From the NCBI GenBank assembly GCA_015065455.1, contig SVQI01000006.1, positions 10,239 through 74,238 on the forward strand: a stretch of DNA of 64,000 nucleotides, written 5' to 3'. Shown here piece by piece: positions 129-4,648 of the stretch (position 1 is its first letter; each line of letters begins with the position of its first letter). This DNA comes from Oscillospiraceae bacterium (GTDB lineage Bacteria; Bacillota; Clostridia; Oscillospirales; CAG-272). The notes under the pieces were generated by a model that saw only the letters and a list, made by a program, of their open reading frames with translations, searched no databases and was not told the DNA's origin. The position numbers and the translations under genes were made by a program.

Positions 129-225
129 GTCATCCTCGAACAAGCCGCCTCGGGATTCTTCGCTTCGCTCTAGAATGACAACGCGGCGGCGCAGTGAAGG
201 ATCTCTGGCGATTCGTTATTCGAAA
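129..225. repeat. Dispersed repeat, direct copy B, left flank of the GIY-YIG gene
   Basis: Bases 149-225 are identical to 1-77. Bases 129-148, reading GTCATCCTCGA then AAGCCGCC, extend the element and match the inverted copy at 530-622. The unit is imperfectly palindromic: GTCATCCTCGA on one side, GAAGGATCTC on the other. It overlaps the 3' end of the GIY-YIG gene, whose stop lies at 216. Confidence 0.85.
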
Positions 226-512
226 ACACCCGGAAACAATTTATCTGACAGATCAATCCATTCTGGATTCATCGTTTCAACCAATTCATTTTTTCTAACG
301 CGTAAAAGCCCTTTAAGTTTTTTCTCCCTAAAAATAGCATCATTTATATCATTGTAGCATTCATAGTATACCAAGTTGTGAACATGATATTTTTTTGTGA
401 AACCGTCAAGAAGCTCTTTTTTGTGTTCGTACAGGCGACGCTTTAAATCATTTGTAACACCTATATACATAACCTTGTTTGTTTTATTTGTCAAGATGTA
501 AACGTAATACAT
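216..512 (-). CDS. GIY-YIG nuclease family protein (UPF0213-like, 98 aa)
   Basis: A short single-domain GIY-YIG endonuclease-fold protein. The motif appears as YYVYIL near residue 2 and MYIGVT near residue 15, followed by a conserved Arg (DLKRRLYEHK) and YYE near residue 50; the later EKKLKG segment is also typical. Proteins of this size are usually annotated as UPF0213 or YhbQ-like; their role is uncertain, with DNA repair or mobile-element association suggested. Here the gene sits alone between inverted copies of a dispersed repeat (129-225 and 530-622), and its C-terminus runs into the left copy. That suggests the gene and the repeat move or are maintained together, which is inference. The family call is firm; the function is open. 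Confidence 0.85.
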   Translation of the reverse strand: MYYVYILTNKTNKVMYIGVTNDLKRRLYEHKKELLDGFTKKYHVHNLVYYECYNDINDAIFREKKLKGLLRVRKNELVETMNPEWIDLSDKLFPGVFE

Positions 513-654: not shown

Positions 655-706
655 GATACTTTTGAATTAACACTTAAAACTTAACCGGTTAAAAACTTGA
701 CTATCT
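655..706 (-). repeat. Cassette 3' element, copy 1
   Basis: Immediately after the stop of the 183-aa gene. Read on the plus strand it aligns with the elements at 1450-1495 and 2040-2085 over about 50 bases, sharing ACACT, AAAA, AACCGGT, a run of A, then CTTTATT. It is the most diverged of the three clear copies. Confidence 0.65.
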
Positions 707-1258
707 TTATTGCAATATAGTTTTAATTGCTTCAATATCGTAATCATTCTTAACGGGTAAAAAATCGATATTTTCATATTTCACATCAGGATGCTCGTCA
801 AATAAATCTTTATCTATTAAAACAACTGCTTTTTTACATATATCATTCTTTAACAAGTCATTACACTCATTAATAGCAGCTTCAACTTCACCTTTTATAT
901 CTACATATTCATCTTCAATTTCTGCTAACCAGATATTTTTCTCTGCATCAAAACAAGGATCAAATTCGTTTAAAATAAGGGTGTCTTTATAAACAAAGAA
1001 ACCGTAACCAGTAAAATTATCATTATTACATCGGTAATAATCAATGGGCAAGTTTTCTTTTTTGATCAAATCGTATAATTTGATATAATACGAAACTGTG
1101 CAAAGCCAAGAGTATTTTTCTTTTGTGTCCTTATAGTAACGCGACTTTTTATATTTATAATAATCAATGGGTGTTAGCACTAGTAAAAACAATAAAAAAA
1201 CAACAGCAATAGGGATAAGCAAAATAGTTGTTATAATTTTTGTAATATTCTTTTTCAT
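707..1258 (-). CDS. Hypothetical membrane-anchored protein, cassette 1 (183 aa)
   Basis: I do not recognise the family. A Lys-rich N-terminus is followed by a hydrophobic segment (about residues 8-30), so the protein is probably anchored by one helix. The rest is hydrophilic and acidic, with many Tyr, Asp and Glu. The ATG follows GGGGGTAAAATA and lies just downstream of the conserved cassette promoter at 1279-1307. The downstream element resembles those behind the next two genes although the proteins are unrelated. The C-terminal two-thirds could be a small globular domain facing either side of the membrane; topology cannot be decided by eye. Confidence 0.6.
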   Translation of the reverse strand: MKKNITKIITTILLIPIAVVFLLFLLVLTPIDYYKYKKSRYYKDTKEKYSWLCTVSYYIKLYDLIKKENLPIDYYRCNNDNFTGYGFFVYKDTLILNEFDPCFDAEKNIWLAEIEDEYVDIKGEVEAAINECNDLLKNDICKKAVVLIDKDLFDEHPDVKYENIDFLPVKNDYDIEAIKTILQ

Positions 1259-1278
1259 TATTTTACCCCCTTTAGTGT

Positions 1279-1307
1279 ATTATAGCATAAAAGCGGCGAA
1301 GCCGCAA
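1279..1307 (-). promoter_or_regulatory. Cassette promoter 1
   Basis: On the minus strand: -35 TTGCGG, 17-bp spacer ending in TTTTATGC, then -10 TATAAT (extended TGC form). A small TTGCGGCTTCGCCGC hairpin overlaps the -35. The segment TTTTATGCTATAATACAC is shared with cassettes 2 and 3. Confidence 0.8.
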
Positions 1308-1420
1308 TAATTATTCATTATTCATCAGCGTAAGCGGCTTCATTTTTCATTATTCATTTGAAAATCCGTTCACTTTTAATGAATGTTGAATATTGAAAAA
1401 TGAATAATCCAAACAAAAAT
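1305..1420. repeat. AT-rich inverted repeat (TTATTCATTATTCAT type)
   Basis: Left part has ATTATTCATTATTCAT and TTCATTTTTCATTATTCAT; right part has AATGAATGTTGAATATTG and AAAAATGAATAAT in the opposite sense. The stretch can fold into a long A/T hairpin and lies between cassettes 1 and 2. The cassette 2 terminator begins just after it. Confidence 0.6.
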
Positions 1421-1421
1421 C

Positions 1422-1495
1422 CGCCCTCTTACGAGAACGGATTTTCGTTTGGAAACGACACTCAAAATGGAACCGGTCTAAAAAACTGATTTTCT
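1422..1495 (-). repeat. Cassette 3' element, copy 2, with terminator-like hairpin
   Basis: Contains the hairpin AAATCCG / CGGATTT (about 1422-1450) followed, on the plus strand, by GACACTCAAAATGGAACCGG and then AAAAAACTGATTTTCTTT. The second part is almost identical to 2048-2085 behind the next gene. On the coding (minus) strand the order is stop codon, conserved element, hairpin. Confidence 0.75.
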
Positions 1496-1879
1496 TTATT
1501 CAAATTCTAATATATAAATTGCAGTCGAATTCTCTGTTGTACCTGTACATTCTAACTCAAGCCTAGTATCGTACCAATAAATATTTTTAATATTATATTC
1601 ATATAGCCCAGCACCATCATTATGAATCGAAATTGCTTCTTTGTCAACTGTTTTTCCATTAGAGTTAACAACCATGATTTGTGCCTTAACCGGACCAAAA
1701 GGCCACTCAGGTGAGCCGACTTGATAAAGAACAAATTCAAACTCACTATTGGGACTCATTTCTCGATATATTTCTCTTTTTTCAAAATATTCTGCATAAA
1801 TTAAAAGCGAAATGAAAGAAAATATCGCAACTAATATTATAACAATCAGTGAAACAATTACCACTTTAAGTTTCTTCAT
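1496..1879 (-). CDS. Hypothetical membrane-anchored protein, cassette 2 (127 aa)
   Basis: Family not recognised. An N-terminal hydrophobic segment (about residues 5-29) is followed by a ~95-residue domain that looks extracytoplasmic and beta-rich (SEFEFVLYQVGSPEWPFGP, then a mid-domain VDKEAISIHNDGAG and a Trp-Tyr strand). It could be a lipoprotein-like or immunity-like domain, but no lipobox is present. The ATG follows AAGGCGGTGAT, a near-perfect anti-SD complement carried in the conserved cassette leader. It is unrelated in sequence to the neighbouring cassette genes. Confidence 0.6.
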   Translation of the reverse strand: MKKLKVVIVSLIVIILVAIFSFISLLIYAEYFEKREIYREMSPNSEFEFVLYQVGSPEWPFGPVKAQIMVVNSNGKTVDKEAISIHNDGAGLYEYNIKNIYWYDTRLELECTGTTENSTAIYILEFE

Positions 1880-1901
1880 ATCATCACCGCCTTATATGTG
1901 T

Positions 1902-1930
1902 ATTATAGCATAAAAGCGGTGGAACCGCAA
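1902..1930 (-). promoter_or_regulatory. Cassette promoter 2
   Basis: Minus strand: TTGCGG, 17-bp spacer, TATAAT, with the same TTTTATGC upstream of -10 and the same AAGGCGGTGAT ribosome site 9-10 bases downstream as cassette 3. The leader is only about 20 nt. Confidence 0.8.
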
Positions 1931-2009
1931 TACTTATTACCTCTTACCTATTACTTCTTACTTCCCAAAAATCCCGAATAATGAGTTTAAGTGAAGAGTA
2001 AAAAAGTAA

Positions 2010-2085
2010 AATCCCGCCCACTTTCGTGAACGAGATTTTTGGCTCCGACACTCATAATGGAACCGGTCTAAAAAACTGATTTTCT
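2010..2085 (-). repeat. Cassette 3' element, copy 3, with terminator-like hairpin
   Basis: Hairpin AAATCCCG / CGAGATTT (about 2010-2039), then plus-strand GACACTCATAATGGAACCGG and AAAAAACTGATTTTCTTT, matching copy 2 with about one substitution in 38 bases. It abuts the stop codon of the 155-aa gene. Confidence 0.75.
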
Positions 2086-2553
2086 TTAAATTTGTATAAA
2101 AGATAATATTTCAAAATACAAAGACAATAGCAAAAGTGGTATGCCAAGGATATATGTCAATCTTTTCTCCGCTATTTTATCTCTCCCCGTATCTTTAATT
2201 GAATAAAACATTATAATCATAAAACAAATCGGTAGACATATAGGCAGAAAAAGCACGGTGGAGATTCCTTTGCTTAAAACAAATCTAAAAGCATCAACAA
2301 CAACAAGATCTAACACAATAAAACACGTACATAAAATGAGTGCTTTATTCATACTGTCGTTCATCTGATTTCTGAAACACTTTTGTAAACTCTTAATAAT
2401 TAACGGAACAAATAATAGTCGTAAATAAGTATGTAGAATTACATCGACCGCAAAATTTTTTAATATTAAGGATAAAACAGCAAGTAAAATCAAAGTCACA
2501 GCAAGTGCAGCAATGATCACAGTAAATATAATACGTTTCTTTGTTTCATACAT
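2086..2553 (-). CDS. Hypothetical multi-pass membrane protein, cassette 3 (155 aa)
   Basis: Family not recognised. Four or so hydrophobic segments can be read (about residues 8-31, 36-55, 66-90, 97-115 and a last one near 130-152), separated by short polar loops, so it is a small integral membrane protein. The N-terminus is Lys/Arg-rich (ETKKR), which suggests the N-terminus inside. The start follows AAGGCGGTGATTTT in the shared leader. There is no detectable relation to the other cassette proteins except membrane association. Confidence 0.6.
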   Translation of the reverse strand: MYETKKRIIFTVIIAALAVTLILLAVLSLILKNFAVDVILHTYLRLLFVPLIIKSLQKCFRNQMNDSMNKALILCTCFIVLDLVVVDAFRFVLSKGISTVLFLPICLPICFMIIMFYSIKDTGRDKIAEKRLTYILGIPLLLLSLYFEILSFIQI

Positions 2554-2574
2554 AAAATCACCGCCTTTACGTGT

Positions 2575-2603
2575 ATTATAGCATAAAAGCGGTAGAGAAG
2601 CAA
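2575..2603 (-). promoter_or_regulatory. Cassette promoter 3
   Basis: Minus strand: TTGCTT, 17-bp spacer ending CGCTTTTATGC, TATAAT. Sequence from CCGCTTTTATGC to ATACAC is the same as in cassette 2. Confidence 0.8.
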
Positions 2604-2604
2604 G

Positions 2605-2835
2605 ATGTTAGTGATATTCTGTGTTTCACACAGAGTGATATTTTTACTTCGTGAAAGCGATATTGAAACCTTTGGTTTCAGTGATATTAAATCCGTCCCC
2701 TAACCCGACGAAGTCGGATTTCATCACGAAGCGATTTCACCCGAACGAAGTGAGGATTTATCCCGTCCATCAGGACGGATTTAGTTGAAAAAGAAAAGAC
2801 AAGTCTTTCGACTTGTCTTTTCTTTTTCTGGGTGT
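2605..2835. repeat. Chain of mini-hairpins with GTGATATT and GATTTCA(T/C)C spacers, ending in a terminator
   Basis: This is the content of the 335-bp gap between cassettes 3 and 4. Short palindromes (GTGTTTCACAC, TTCGTGAA, GAAACCTTTGGTTTC) are separated by (A)GTGATATT or CGATATT at roughly 24-bp steps. A second series follows (CGACGAAGTCG, CACGAAGCGA, CGTCCATCAGGACG) with ATTTCATC / ATTTCACC / ATTTATC spacers. The last hairpin, AAGACAAGTC / GACTTGTCTT (about 2795-2827), is flanked by A- and T-runs and would act as a terminator in either direction. No reading frame is present. Confidence 0.6.
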
Positions 2836-2887
2836 TTTGAACTTAATGACACGAATAAAAAATGCCTGAAAACTGAAAAGTTTTATA

Positions 2888-3160
2888 TTAAGCTAATGTG
2901 CTTTTTATCATTTGTATCAATTTAGGAAATGTATCTTCTTTCTCTTTATATTGGTAAGAACTATCACATAGCATTTCATCATTGTGATATATTTCGCCCC
3001 TATCCGTTATAAAAGTATGAACTTTTCCGTTTTGCTTTATCTTAGCAATCATATTTCCAAAGCATTTTGAATCATATATAAAATCAATTAATATTGCATC
3101 ATTCGGCAACGCAGAAATAATAAACTGTTTCATTTCATCAATAGAAAAATACTTACTCAT
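2888..3160 (-). CDS. Hypothetical small soluble protein, cassette 4 (90 aa)
   Basis: Family not recognised. No signal peptide or membrane helix. A helix (SIDEMKQFIISALP), a beta-rich centre ending in FITDRGEIYHNDEML, and a C-terminal helix (PKLIQMIKS) suggest a compact alpha/beta domain. Ribosome site AAGGCGGTGAGTTT lies directly before ATG in the same leader type as the other cassettes. Behind its stop, plus-strand GACAC..ATAA..AA..AAAACTGA (about 2835-2885) resembles the 3' element of the others, more weakly. Confidence 0.55.
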   Translation of the reverse strand: MSKYFSIDEMKQFIISALPNDAILIDFIYDSKCFGNMIAKIKQNGKVHTFITDRGEIYHNDEMLCDSSYQYKEKEDTFPKLIQMIKSTLA

Positions 3161-3180
3161 AAACTCACCGCCTTGGGTAT

Positions 3181-3209
3181 ATTATAGCATAAAAGTGATA
3201 ATAAATCAA
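3181..3209 (-). promoter_or_regulatory. Cassette promoter 4
   Basis: Minus strand: TTGATT, 17-bp spacer ending CTTTTATGC, TATAAT, then AAGGCGGTGAG. The -10 region and ribosome site match cassettes 1-3; the spacer is more diverged. Confidence 0.75.
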
Positions 3210-3249
3210 TGCGAAGCATTGTGTTTTTAATTCGTGGCGAAGCCACACC

Positions 3250-3337
3250 GAACTTATTACCTCTTACCTTTTACTTATTACTTCCCAAAGCCCCAAGGAC
3301 TTTTGAGGTAAGAGTGAAGAGGTAATAGGTAAGAAGT
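3250..3337. repeat. Inverted repeat (TTATTACCTCTTACC type)
   Basis: CTTATTACCTCTTACC with TTACTTATTACTTCCC on the left and GAAGAGGTAATAGGTAAGAA on the right form a long inverted repeat. A partial copy (TTATTACCTCTTACCTATTA) lies at about 1934-1975 between cassettes 2 and 3. Confidence 0.6.
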
Positions 3338-3368
3338 AAGCCCCAAGAACTTATCGTCCTTGGGGCTT
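3338..3368 (-). terminator. Hairpin downstream of tRNA-Thr
   Basis: AAGCCCCAAG and CTTGGGGCTT arms, loop about 10 nt, immediately after the tRNA 3' end on the minus strand. The tail is only weakly T-rich. Confidence 0.5.
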
Positions 3369-3444
<76 letters not shown>

Positions 3445-3460
3445 GCTTCATCGAGATATC

Positions 3461-3489
3461 ATTATATCAAACCATATATTTTTTGTCAA
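3461..3489 (-). promoter_or_regulatory. Promoter of tRNA-Thr
   Basis: Minus strand TTGACA, 17-bp spacer, TATAAT: a perfect sigma-A consensus about 17 bp upstream of the tRNA 5' end. Confidence 0.85.
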
Positions 3490-3521
3490 TACCTTTTGCA
3501 AGATATTTCTTTGTACACAAT

Positions 3522-4199
3522 TCATTGTCTTTTTGTCTTTTTCTGTATGTTTTTATAATCAGGACAATAGCGTAGAAGAAGCTCATAAAACTCCTTATTA
3601 TGCCCTTTTACTCTTAAATGCGTCAACTCGTGATACACTACCGATTCGATAAATTCATAAGGCTTTTCCATAAGCCAAACTGATAGCCAAATTCTTCCCT
3701 CTTTTGTATTACAGCTTCCCCATCGTGTCTTCATATTTTTTAAACGCCATTCGTTTGCAGAAATCCCCGATATTCTTTCACACTTCTCTGTCATTTGTGG
3801 CATTATCTCACTCAAAGCATCTCTGTAAACATCAGCCAAAGCTTTTTTTCTTGACTCAACCGTACTGTTTTTTCCTACACAAATAACTATATCGTTCCCT
3901 TTAAAATAATACCCCTTATTTTTCTCCGTATCAGTATGCAGAGTATATTTTCTTCCCCAAAAAAACCTTTCTTCTCCCTCTGAAAAAGTCTGTTCTTTTT
4001 TATTTCTGCTGGAAACTTTTTCTATTGTTTTTTCTAACCATTCTTCTTTAGAATTTACAAAATCAATTATATCATAGTCATTCATAAACAACGGTGCAGA
4101 TACAAAAACTTCTCCGTTATTTTTCACACGGAGATATATATTCTTTATTCTTTTTTTGACAACAAAAACGTCAATTCCGTCAACGTTGATTATTTTCAT
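3522..4199 (-). CDS. YgjP/WLM-like zinc metallopeptidase family protein (225 aa)
   Basis: Member of the YgjP-like family (M48-related, formerly DUF45). The C-terminal part carries the gluzincin signature HELTHLRVKGH followed by NKEF (about residues 192-206), in which two His and Glu would bind zinc and catalyse; WGSCN near residue 164 is the usual upstream motif. The N-terminal half is the beta-rich domain with KRIKNIYLRV. In-vivo substrates are poorly known. I use ATG at 4199, which has GAGG five bases upstream, rather than the GTG at 4205. The gene is divergent from rnpB. Confidence 0.85.
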   Translation of the reverse strand: MKIINVDGIDVFVVKKRIKNIYLRVKNNGEVFVSAPLFMNDYDIIDFVNSKEEWLEKTIEKVSSRNKKEQTFSEGEERFFWGRKYTLHTDTEKNKGYYFKGNDIVICVGKNSTVESRKKALADVYRDALSEIMPQMTEKCERISGISANEWRLKNMKTRWGSCNTKEGRIWLSVWLMEKPYEFIESVVYHELTHLRVKGHNKEFYELLLRYCPDYKNIQKKTKRQ

Positions 4200-4224
4200 A
4201 TCCACCTCATAAAAACACTATGAC

Positions 4225-4253
4225 TTGACAAAAAACAAAAAAATAAATATAAT
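4225..4253 (+). promoter_or_regulatory. Promoter of rnpB
   Basis: TTGACA, 17-bp A-rich spacer, TATAAT: perfect consensus. The predicted start is at about 4260, matching the RNA 5' end inferred from pairing. Confidence 0.9.
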
Positions 4254-4260
4254 ACAAACG

Positions 4261-4640
4261 TACCAGACGGTGCGTTCGCGTAATATCATGCCGAAAGGTC
4301 TTATTGCGAGGAAAGTCCGGGCTTCATAGGGCAGGATAACGGATAACGTCCGCCGGAGGCGACTCCCGGGAAAGTGCAACAGAAATAAACCGCTGATATT
4401 TTATCAGTAAGGATGGAAAGGCGAGGTAAGAGCTCACCGGCATAATGGTAACATTGTGCAAATGTAAACCCTATCTGAAGCAACACCGCATAAGAGTATG
4501 TAGCAATACAGCGGCTGCCCGTCGTTTACTCTTGGGTGGCACGGAGCTTTTTGCTCCGAAGCTTGTCGGTAACGGCAAGCGAAGATAGATGAACGCAGTC
4601 AAGCTTTGCTTGGCACAGAACCCGGCTTACAAGTCTGATA
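4261..4640 (+). ncRNA. rnpB: RNase P RNA (M1-type)
   Basis: The catalytic RNA of RNase P, which matures tRNA 5' ends. Hallmarks seen: GAGGAAAGTCCGGGCT (CR-I) near 4308, the GTAAGAGCTCACCGG region near 4425, and ACAGAACCCGGCTTA (CR-V) near 4616. The ends pair as P1 (TACCAGAC at 4261-4268 with GTCTGATA at 4633-4640, one mismatch). Length of about 380 nt suits a bacterial RNase P RNA; type A versus B was not resolved. It is flanked by a consensus promoter and a strong terminator. Confidence 0.95.
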
Positions 4641-4648
4641 TACCATTT

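Follow-up and report, generated by a model that had tools for sequence, protein, structure and literature searches.

An array of unrelated small genes behind a tRNA gene in an Oscillospiraceae genome and a candidate tRNA-anchored cassette system in gut Clostridia

Why should four unrelated small genes stand in a row between matching flanks? We asked this of a 64,000-nucleotide stretch of an Oscillospiraceae bacterium genome (GenBank assembly GCA_015065455.1, contig SVQI01000006.1, positions 10,239 to 74,238; hereafter the window, with positions counted from its first letter), in which four small open reading frames (ORFs) lie at 707-3160, all on the minus strand, downstream of a tRNA-Thr gene. 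To our knowledge, integrons are the one well-known platform that gathers unrelated genes as cassettes, and an earlier reading of the letters alone (the sequence-only reading) had proposed a modular cassette system with a mechanism different from theirs. The window comes from a 1.54 Mb metagenome-assembled genome (MAG) that is 97% complete (G000; the window's contig is C15), whose sequence was inspected in the stretches around motif matches. Our preferred answer, to which we give a probability of roughly 0.62, is that the window array is one of several in this genome that belong to a tRNA-anchored, integron-like cassette system with a recombinase acting in trans.

Layout of the array in the window

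Every gene of the array stands in a unit of one plan: a terminator-like hairpin, folded linker and promoter; a Shine-Dalgarno sequence with one small ORF; and a 3′ element ending in (C/A)CA. Each unit extends from just past one CCA up to the next CCA-like end. The features are listed below from the tRNA gene onward (tRNA called by ARAGORN, promoter cores by motif search, linkers by classification, 3′ elements by comparison, ORFs from the ORF list with Pfam).

3369-3444, minus strand: tRNA-Thr (GGT), whose encoded CCA (3371-3369) is the array anchor; the CCA/linker junction is exact
3196-3368, minus strand: unit 4 linker, with a terminator-like hairpin, a class A imperfect inverted repeat and two small hairpins (fold z-score −7.0)
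3204-3209, minus strand: unit 4 −35 box, inside the unit 4 linker
3177-3195, minus strand: unit 4 promoter core, −10 TATAAT at 3181-3186
2888-3160, minus strand: cassette ORF 4, 90 aa, soluble, without Pfam match
2829-2887, minus strand: 3′ element of class gamma, ending ...GTTCAAAACACCCA
2590-2828, minus strand: unit 3 linker, class B
2571-2589, minus strand: unit 3 promoter core, −10 at 2575-2580
2086-2553, minus strand: cassette ORF 3, 155 aa, multi-pass membrane protein, without Pfam match
2040-2085, minus strand: 3′ element of class alpha, ending ...GTGTCGGAGCCA
1917-2039, minus strand: unit 2 linker, class A
1898-1916, minus strand: unit 2 promoter core, −10 at 1902-1907
1496-1879, minus strand: cassette ORF 2, 127 aa, N-terminal membrane segment, without Pfam match
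1450-1495, minus strand: 3′ element of class alpha, ending ...GTGTCGTTTCCA
1294-1449, minus strand: unit 1 linker, class A2 (ATTATTCAT type)
1275-1293, minus strand: unit 1 promoter core, −10 at 1279-1284
707-1258, minus strand: cassette ORF 1, 183 aa, N-terminal membrane segment, without Pfam match
662-706, minus strand: degenerate alpha-like 3′ element, the array end

The sequence-only reading was partly confirmed in its observations. The four ORFs (707-1258, 1496-1879, 2086-2553 and 2888-3160, minus strand) are present, as is the shared leader GTGTATTATAGCATAAAAG (plus strand) at 1275, 1898, 2571 and 3177, the last copy reading GTATATT.... The coding parts are indeed unrelated, with no Pfam family above cut-off in any of the four and no mutual grouping by blastp, and the adjoining tRNA gene is real, its encoded CCA marking the exact array start. 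Other points needed correction. The motif AAGGCGGTGA occurs in three genes, as described, at 4-5 nt before the ATG rather than directly before it. The 3′ element, reported as clear behind three genes and weak behind a fourth, is clear behind two (1450-1495, 2040-2085) and degenerate behind the first (~662-706), and behind the fourth gene stands another class, gamma (2829-2887), which is common elsewhere. The array does not end at 3210; its real start is the tRNA 3′ end, at 3368. The repeated unit exists and is larger than described, each copy including a hairpin-rich linker of 110-240 nt. Two features had been missed altogether: the tRNA CCA serves as the unit boundary, and the linker is folded. 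In unit 3 the linker is chimeric, with GTGAAAT repeats in its first half and ATATCAC repeats in its second.

Junctions at tRNA 3′ ends

Across 125 array loci, 63 tRNA genes within 500 nt upstream lay on the strand of the array and none on the opposite strand. There were 43 readable cases with a tRNA gene just upstream on the same strand, and in nearly all the linker abuts the encoded CCA; the exceptions are a decayed copy behind a tRNA-Ser and locus L082, where the tRNA-Thr call ends without CCA. Exact junctions between CCA and hairpin occur behind tRNAs for Thr, Leu, Cys, Asn, Val and Met. The anchor tRNAs are whole (ARAGORN), insertion at the 3′ end leaving the tRNA intact.

Joints between units have the same form, with the 3′ element ending in CCA or ACA and the next linker hairpin starting there. 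We distinguish three main classes of 3′ element (alpha, ending ...ACCGGTTCCATTTTGAGTGTCGGTCCCA; beta, ending ...CCAGTTCTTTTTCGGACACGAATGACA; gamma, ending ...ATTCGTGTCATTAAGTTCAAAACACCCA) plus a rarer fourth; the classes are conserved up to the CCA-like end, and conservation drops soon beyond it. In alpha and beta a GTTC lies 24 nt before the boundary, matching the spacing of the T-loop GTTC in tRNA, and we infer that these two classes are tRNA-end mimics. At the far border of one array (L043, a single case), 12 nt are identical to its tRNA-Cys.

Arrays in L059, L068 and L073 start behind tRNA 3′ fragments. GC-rich hairpins precede such fragments in L059, L086 and L041 (1720-1920), with the cassettes starting behind the fragments, which may be tRNA-like RNAs or the ends of islands. 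In L036, L112, L200 and L225 a palindrome (AAGCATTCAAACCCGAAC...GTTCGGGTTTG) recurs directly behind either a gamma 3′ element or the CCA of a tRNA-Leu, and may be another element exploiting the same boundary. In a further congener (G003; L161 3694-3740), an apparent 3′ element in inverted orientation follows tRNA-Thr at a contig end.

Content differences between relatives

What follows a given tRNA gene differs from one relative to the next, so the array is not invariant. A congener (G001) carries a single, different cassette at the orthologous tRNA-Thr. Among 23 genomes of another genus, what lies behind tRNA-Leu(TAA) is one of about a dozen distinct units or solo linkers, a plain terminator, or something else. 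Two genomes, G443 and G470, are 92% identical across the tRNA and 2.5 kb upstream, and their similarity ends at the tRNA 3′ end, which places the breakpoint at the CCA, though not against a clean empty site. G470 was considered as an empty tRNA-Leu site and set aside, its post-CCA sequence recurring behind cassettes and another tRNA-Leu; relatives of L084 offered no such comparison either, the flank not being conserved.

The tRNA-Thr gene with its array and the neighbouring YgjP-like gene with RNase P RNA are in opposite relative orientation in G000 (3369-4645) and G001 (L162 130-5100), suggesting that the tRNA with its array was inverted or relocated between the two genomes.

Exchange of reading frames between flanks

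The 135 cassette ORFs of 88 surveyed loci fell into ~90 clusters by blastp, the largest with five members, which shows that they are not homologous copies of one gene. Among 130 ORFs scanned, 34 Pfam families were represented, including glutaminase, PTH2, HAD, GNAT, ADP-ribosylglycohydrolase and YcxB, and the majority of ORFs had no family at all.

Identical reading frames recur in different flanks at 98-100% DNA identity. One ORF (99-100% identity) is found with linker C1 and an alpha element (L051), with linker B2 and alpha (L094), and with B2 and beta (L073). Unrelated linkers precede the same ORF in L082/L092/L109 (99-100% DNA identity), L074/L109 (100%), L044/L081 (98%) and L015/L039 (98%), and a near-identical ORF is shared by L037 and L144 (99%). 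Since identical ORFs occur with unrelated linkers and different 3′ elements, frames have been swapped between interchangeable flanks, and the modular cassette interpretation of the sequence-only reading is supported. All three conditions which that reading had named as refuting it (flanks confined to this locus, ORFs that are homologous copies, an invariant array) turned out in its favour. Alignments put the 5′ switch point at the promoter or in the interval from the −10 box to the Shine-Dalgarno sequence; the 3′ switch point falls just past AGAAAATC. With a switch point on each side of the ORF, three modules are being shuffled. Deletions at short T-rich homologies account for other joints.

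Folded linkers

We collected 102 linkers of 98-404 nt, promoter included, which belong to several sequence classes and share one plan: a terminator-like hairpin at the boundary, followed by a set of imperfect inverted repeats and small hairpins. Folded as DNA, they had a median z-score of −8.2. Of 21 pairs in the class B alignment, 18 had changed on both sides with pairing retained, 93% of cells pair, and the covariation score was 0.71 (0.23 when shuffled, at most 0.17 when slid); 12 of 26 pairs covary in class A and 15 of 67 in class C. The linker has therefore been selected as a folded strand. That strand more likely acts as DNA than as RNA, because a terminator stands at its start and a promoter at its end.

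Solo linkers without a cassette lie behind tRNA-Leu in L222, L234 and L236 and may be remnants or the basic mobile unit. A second type of junction was seen behind some linkers, where GCTTTTATGCTAT and then a GCTTGCGCTACAATAGGGACAAA-like stretch replace the usual promoter end and leaders are longer; its sites are these:

L041, 820-860 and 2080-2110
L220
L144, 4873

Distribution across genomes

Allowing one mismatch at most, the promoter motif has 10 copies in G000, all on contigs C11, C12, C15 and C29; the reversed motif gave 0 matches, and the repetition is therefore not due to chance. The copies on C11 and C12 likewise precede small unrelated ORFs, and the C12 array begins directly behind the end of a tRNA-Asn gene. 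On C29 (L018 7167 and 8001) lies a further, more degenerate array.

The flanks extend far beyond this genome. Close matches in the same order were limited to a few genomes of other families. A scan of 84,980 species genomes returned 111 matching stretches, a lower bound, as the pattern was strict and the congener G001 was missed yet carries a unit. The matches listed (80 of 111) came from 64 different MAGs, every one of them Clostridia/Oscillospiraceae/Ruminococcus and the majority from ruminant hindgut; the sample names mostly point to the gut of goat, sheep, deer, yak, cattle or buffalo, and the pattern lies on contigs of up to 243 kb. The promoter motif was present in two viral contigs, one of them a real unit, and none of the three 3′ elements had an exact match in IMG/VR viral contigs; these counts do not point to a phage-borne origin.

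Search for the recombinase

The search for an enzyme covered both the arrays and the genomes that bear them. The families that Pfam, NCBIfam and PADLOC listed for 130 cassette ORFs included no recombinase. The integron integrase model TIGR02249 gave no match over cut-off in 30 array-bearing genomes, MAGs that are possibly incomplete. Paired attC cores (RYYYAAC...GTTRRRY) were found in 1 of 132 inter-ORF regions forward and 1 reverse, against 3.6 expected by shuffling, in a search made without an attC covariance model. Arrays begin at a tRNA CCA, not at an attI beside intI.

Tyrosine recombinase matches were present in 29 of the 30 carriers, none tied to arrays, and comparison across four carriers returned Xer-like and ICE-type enzymes (ICE, integrative and conjugative element) with no unusual one in common. 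In L041 an ICE-type integrase fragment adjoins the tRNA 3′ fragment that bears the array. The Y1 transposase family PF01797 had no match in G000, G069 or G081 and weak matches in G001 and G082. No reverse transcriptase family match was obtained in G000 or in 6 of the other 11 carriers tested. None of Y1 transposase, reverse transcriptase and serine recombinase was found in every carrier searched.

Comparison with known systems

Integrons are reported to be extremely rare in Firmicutes (PMC9024848). Integron arrays and clusters of attC sites lacking integron-integrases (CALIN; PMC9024848, PMC8618304) resemble the present arrays in their tandem, small, unrelated single-ORF cassettes of mostly unknown function, their folded and sequence-variable sites, their sharing across species of one habitat and their variation between relatives. 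Unlike integrons, the present arrays lack an IntI over cut-off in 30 carriers and an excess of attC cores, in keeping with the different mechanism that had been predicted; they are anchored at a tRNA 3′ end rather than attI, carry a near-identical promoter in nearly every unit, and have ORFs that part from the folded linkers. With the integrase, attC and attI tests all failing, we do not class them as integrons.

Genomic islands, ICEs and satellites with tyrosine integrases target the tRNA 3′ end and carry a tRNA-3′-like stretch at the element end. The units described here likewise use the tRNA 3′ end and leave the tRNA whole, but they measure ~0.5-1.5 kb, hold mostly one gene, stand in tandem without an integrase of their own, and have just GTTC and CCA, not an extended block of identity, in common with the tRNA. 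Modules of the pdif type and other Xer-exploiting elements depend on an enzyme encoded outside them, which moves small genes between short recombination sites. The proposed system would resemble them in this; the present arrays differ in their tRNA anchors and long folded linkers, and no dif-like site was seen in them, although no systematic search was made. Elements of the insertion sequence family IS200/IS605, repetitive extragenic palindromic (REP) sequences and miniature inverted-repeat transposable elements (MITEs) have folded ends, insert beside a short fixed sequence and occur as non-autonomous copies. The units have all three traits, including solo linkers as non-autonomous copies, yet carry diverse unrelated genes under a common promoter, and the window's genome lacks the Y1 transposase match of the IS200/IS605 type.

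In open-access full-text literature (subscription journals and preprints excluded) we found no description of such a system, and we judge its novelty against that literature and the tools used here.

Discussion

How might such units move? In the mechanism we propose, units would enter and exit at the CCA boundary, the enzyme being a recombinase able to recognise both the tRNA 3′ end and the folded linker; the GTTC of alpha and beta stands exactly 24 nt before the boundary, as in the T-arm of a tRNA. The enzyme would act in trans, since the arrays encode no dedicated one, and the likeliest candidate would be a tyrosine recombinase that belongs to a resident ICE or prophage and targets tRNA 3′ ends. 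Exchange of ORFs at the leader/Shine-Dalgarno sequence and at the start of the 3′ element would probably proceed through recombination among the many copies, either homologous or short-homology. As read from its sequence, a captured ORF should be expressible at once, because the unit has its own promoter and the hairpin of the next unit as terminator. On balance we also favour regarding the arrays as a separate gene-capture platform in gut Clostridia, with a tRNA anchor, a promoter-bearing folded linker and a tRNA-3′-end mimic as interchangeable modules, ORFs traded across families, and an enzyme yet to be identified.

Several results weigh against this proposal. A single recombinase fragment, of ICE type, occurs in the 125 array loci, and no enzyme is tied to the arrays. 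We have no clean empty-site comparison, the post-CCA sequence of G470 being itself a recurring palindrome. The GTTC of gamma lies 14 nt, not 24 nt, before the end, and the 3′ elements have little in common with tRNAs except GTTC and CCA. A few arrays follow protein-gene terminators (L037/L144, L088) or a 5S rRNA gene; the unit in L078 (minus strand; ~3860-4005, with the promoter downstream at 3626) directly follows a 5S rRNA gene ending ...CCAACACA, so anchors other than tRNA exist and a tRNA is no strict requirement. Exchange of ORFs takes place at the leader in addition to the CCA, for which a single site-specific reaction is insufficient. Finally, all data are MAGs, and arrays are frequently at contig ends.

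The chief competing explanation dispenses with a dedicated recombinase: linkers, promoters and 3′ elements would be dispersed repeats, shuffled by RecA-dependent or short-homology recombination combined with natural transfer. The flanking modules are all repeated many times within and between genomes, ORF exchange points fall within ~35 nt of conserved promoter/leader, and many chimeric joints sit at short T-rich homologies (for example L050_5122, L083, L107_883 and L092_773, where alpha is joined to the latter half of a linker of class A); the unit 3 linker of the window combines two sub-classes. This account leaves unexplained the exact, one-directional joining to the CCA of tRNAs that share just GTTC and CCA, as well as the two-sided covariation of linkers, and we consider it an unlikely, if serious, contender. 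An RNA-mediated (retro) route, in which the mobile module is the transcript itself, beginning at the expected start site and reaching the CCA-like 3′ end, and a reverse transcriptase starts copying at that tRNA-like end, would fit the CCA-like ends of the 3′ elements, the strong folding of the linkers and exchange points at the leader, where transcription is expected to start (L051/L094, L092/L109 and L074/L109 share an ORF behind different leaders). We think it improbable, given the missing reverse transcriptase matches in G000 and six of the 11 further carriers tested and the separation of ORFs from 3′ elements too.

Equally improbable is a degenerate or divergent integron, that is, a CALIN-type array whose attC sites and integrase have diverged too far for recognition. 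Tandem single-ORF cassettes of mostly unknown function, folded sites between them and sharing within one habitat would all suit it; it was already disfavoured by the IntI count (0/30 carriers) and the attC core pairs (1/132 against 3.6 expected), by tRNA anchors in place of attI beside intI, and by the same promoter in nearly every cassette. As for an ordinary origin, as a conserved small-gene cluster derived from a duplicated promoter-gene unit or as an assembly artefact, the likeness of the four window flanks is what first suggests it; the unrelated ORFs, contents that vary between relatives, and recurrence in at least 64 MAGs on contigs of up to 243 kb refute it, leaving it next to no probability.

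If the tRNA-anchored cassette system is real, herbivore gut communities would exchange genes by a route so far hidden, a distinct platform with ready-made promoters among gut Clostridia. Such a platform would contain a large reservoir of small genes yet to be studied and imply a new recombination chemistry to seek, and the reason for the accumulation of small accessory genes behind tRNAs would become testable.

Beyond the array end, the window contains a GIY-YIG gene (216-512, minus strand) flanked by inverted repeats of 64 nt (142-205 and 537-600; 94% complementary), and the repeat occurs once more, in direct orientation, at 1-77. The gene and its repeats (142-600) are possibly a small mobile element of their own.

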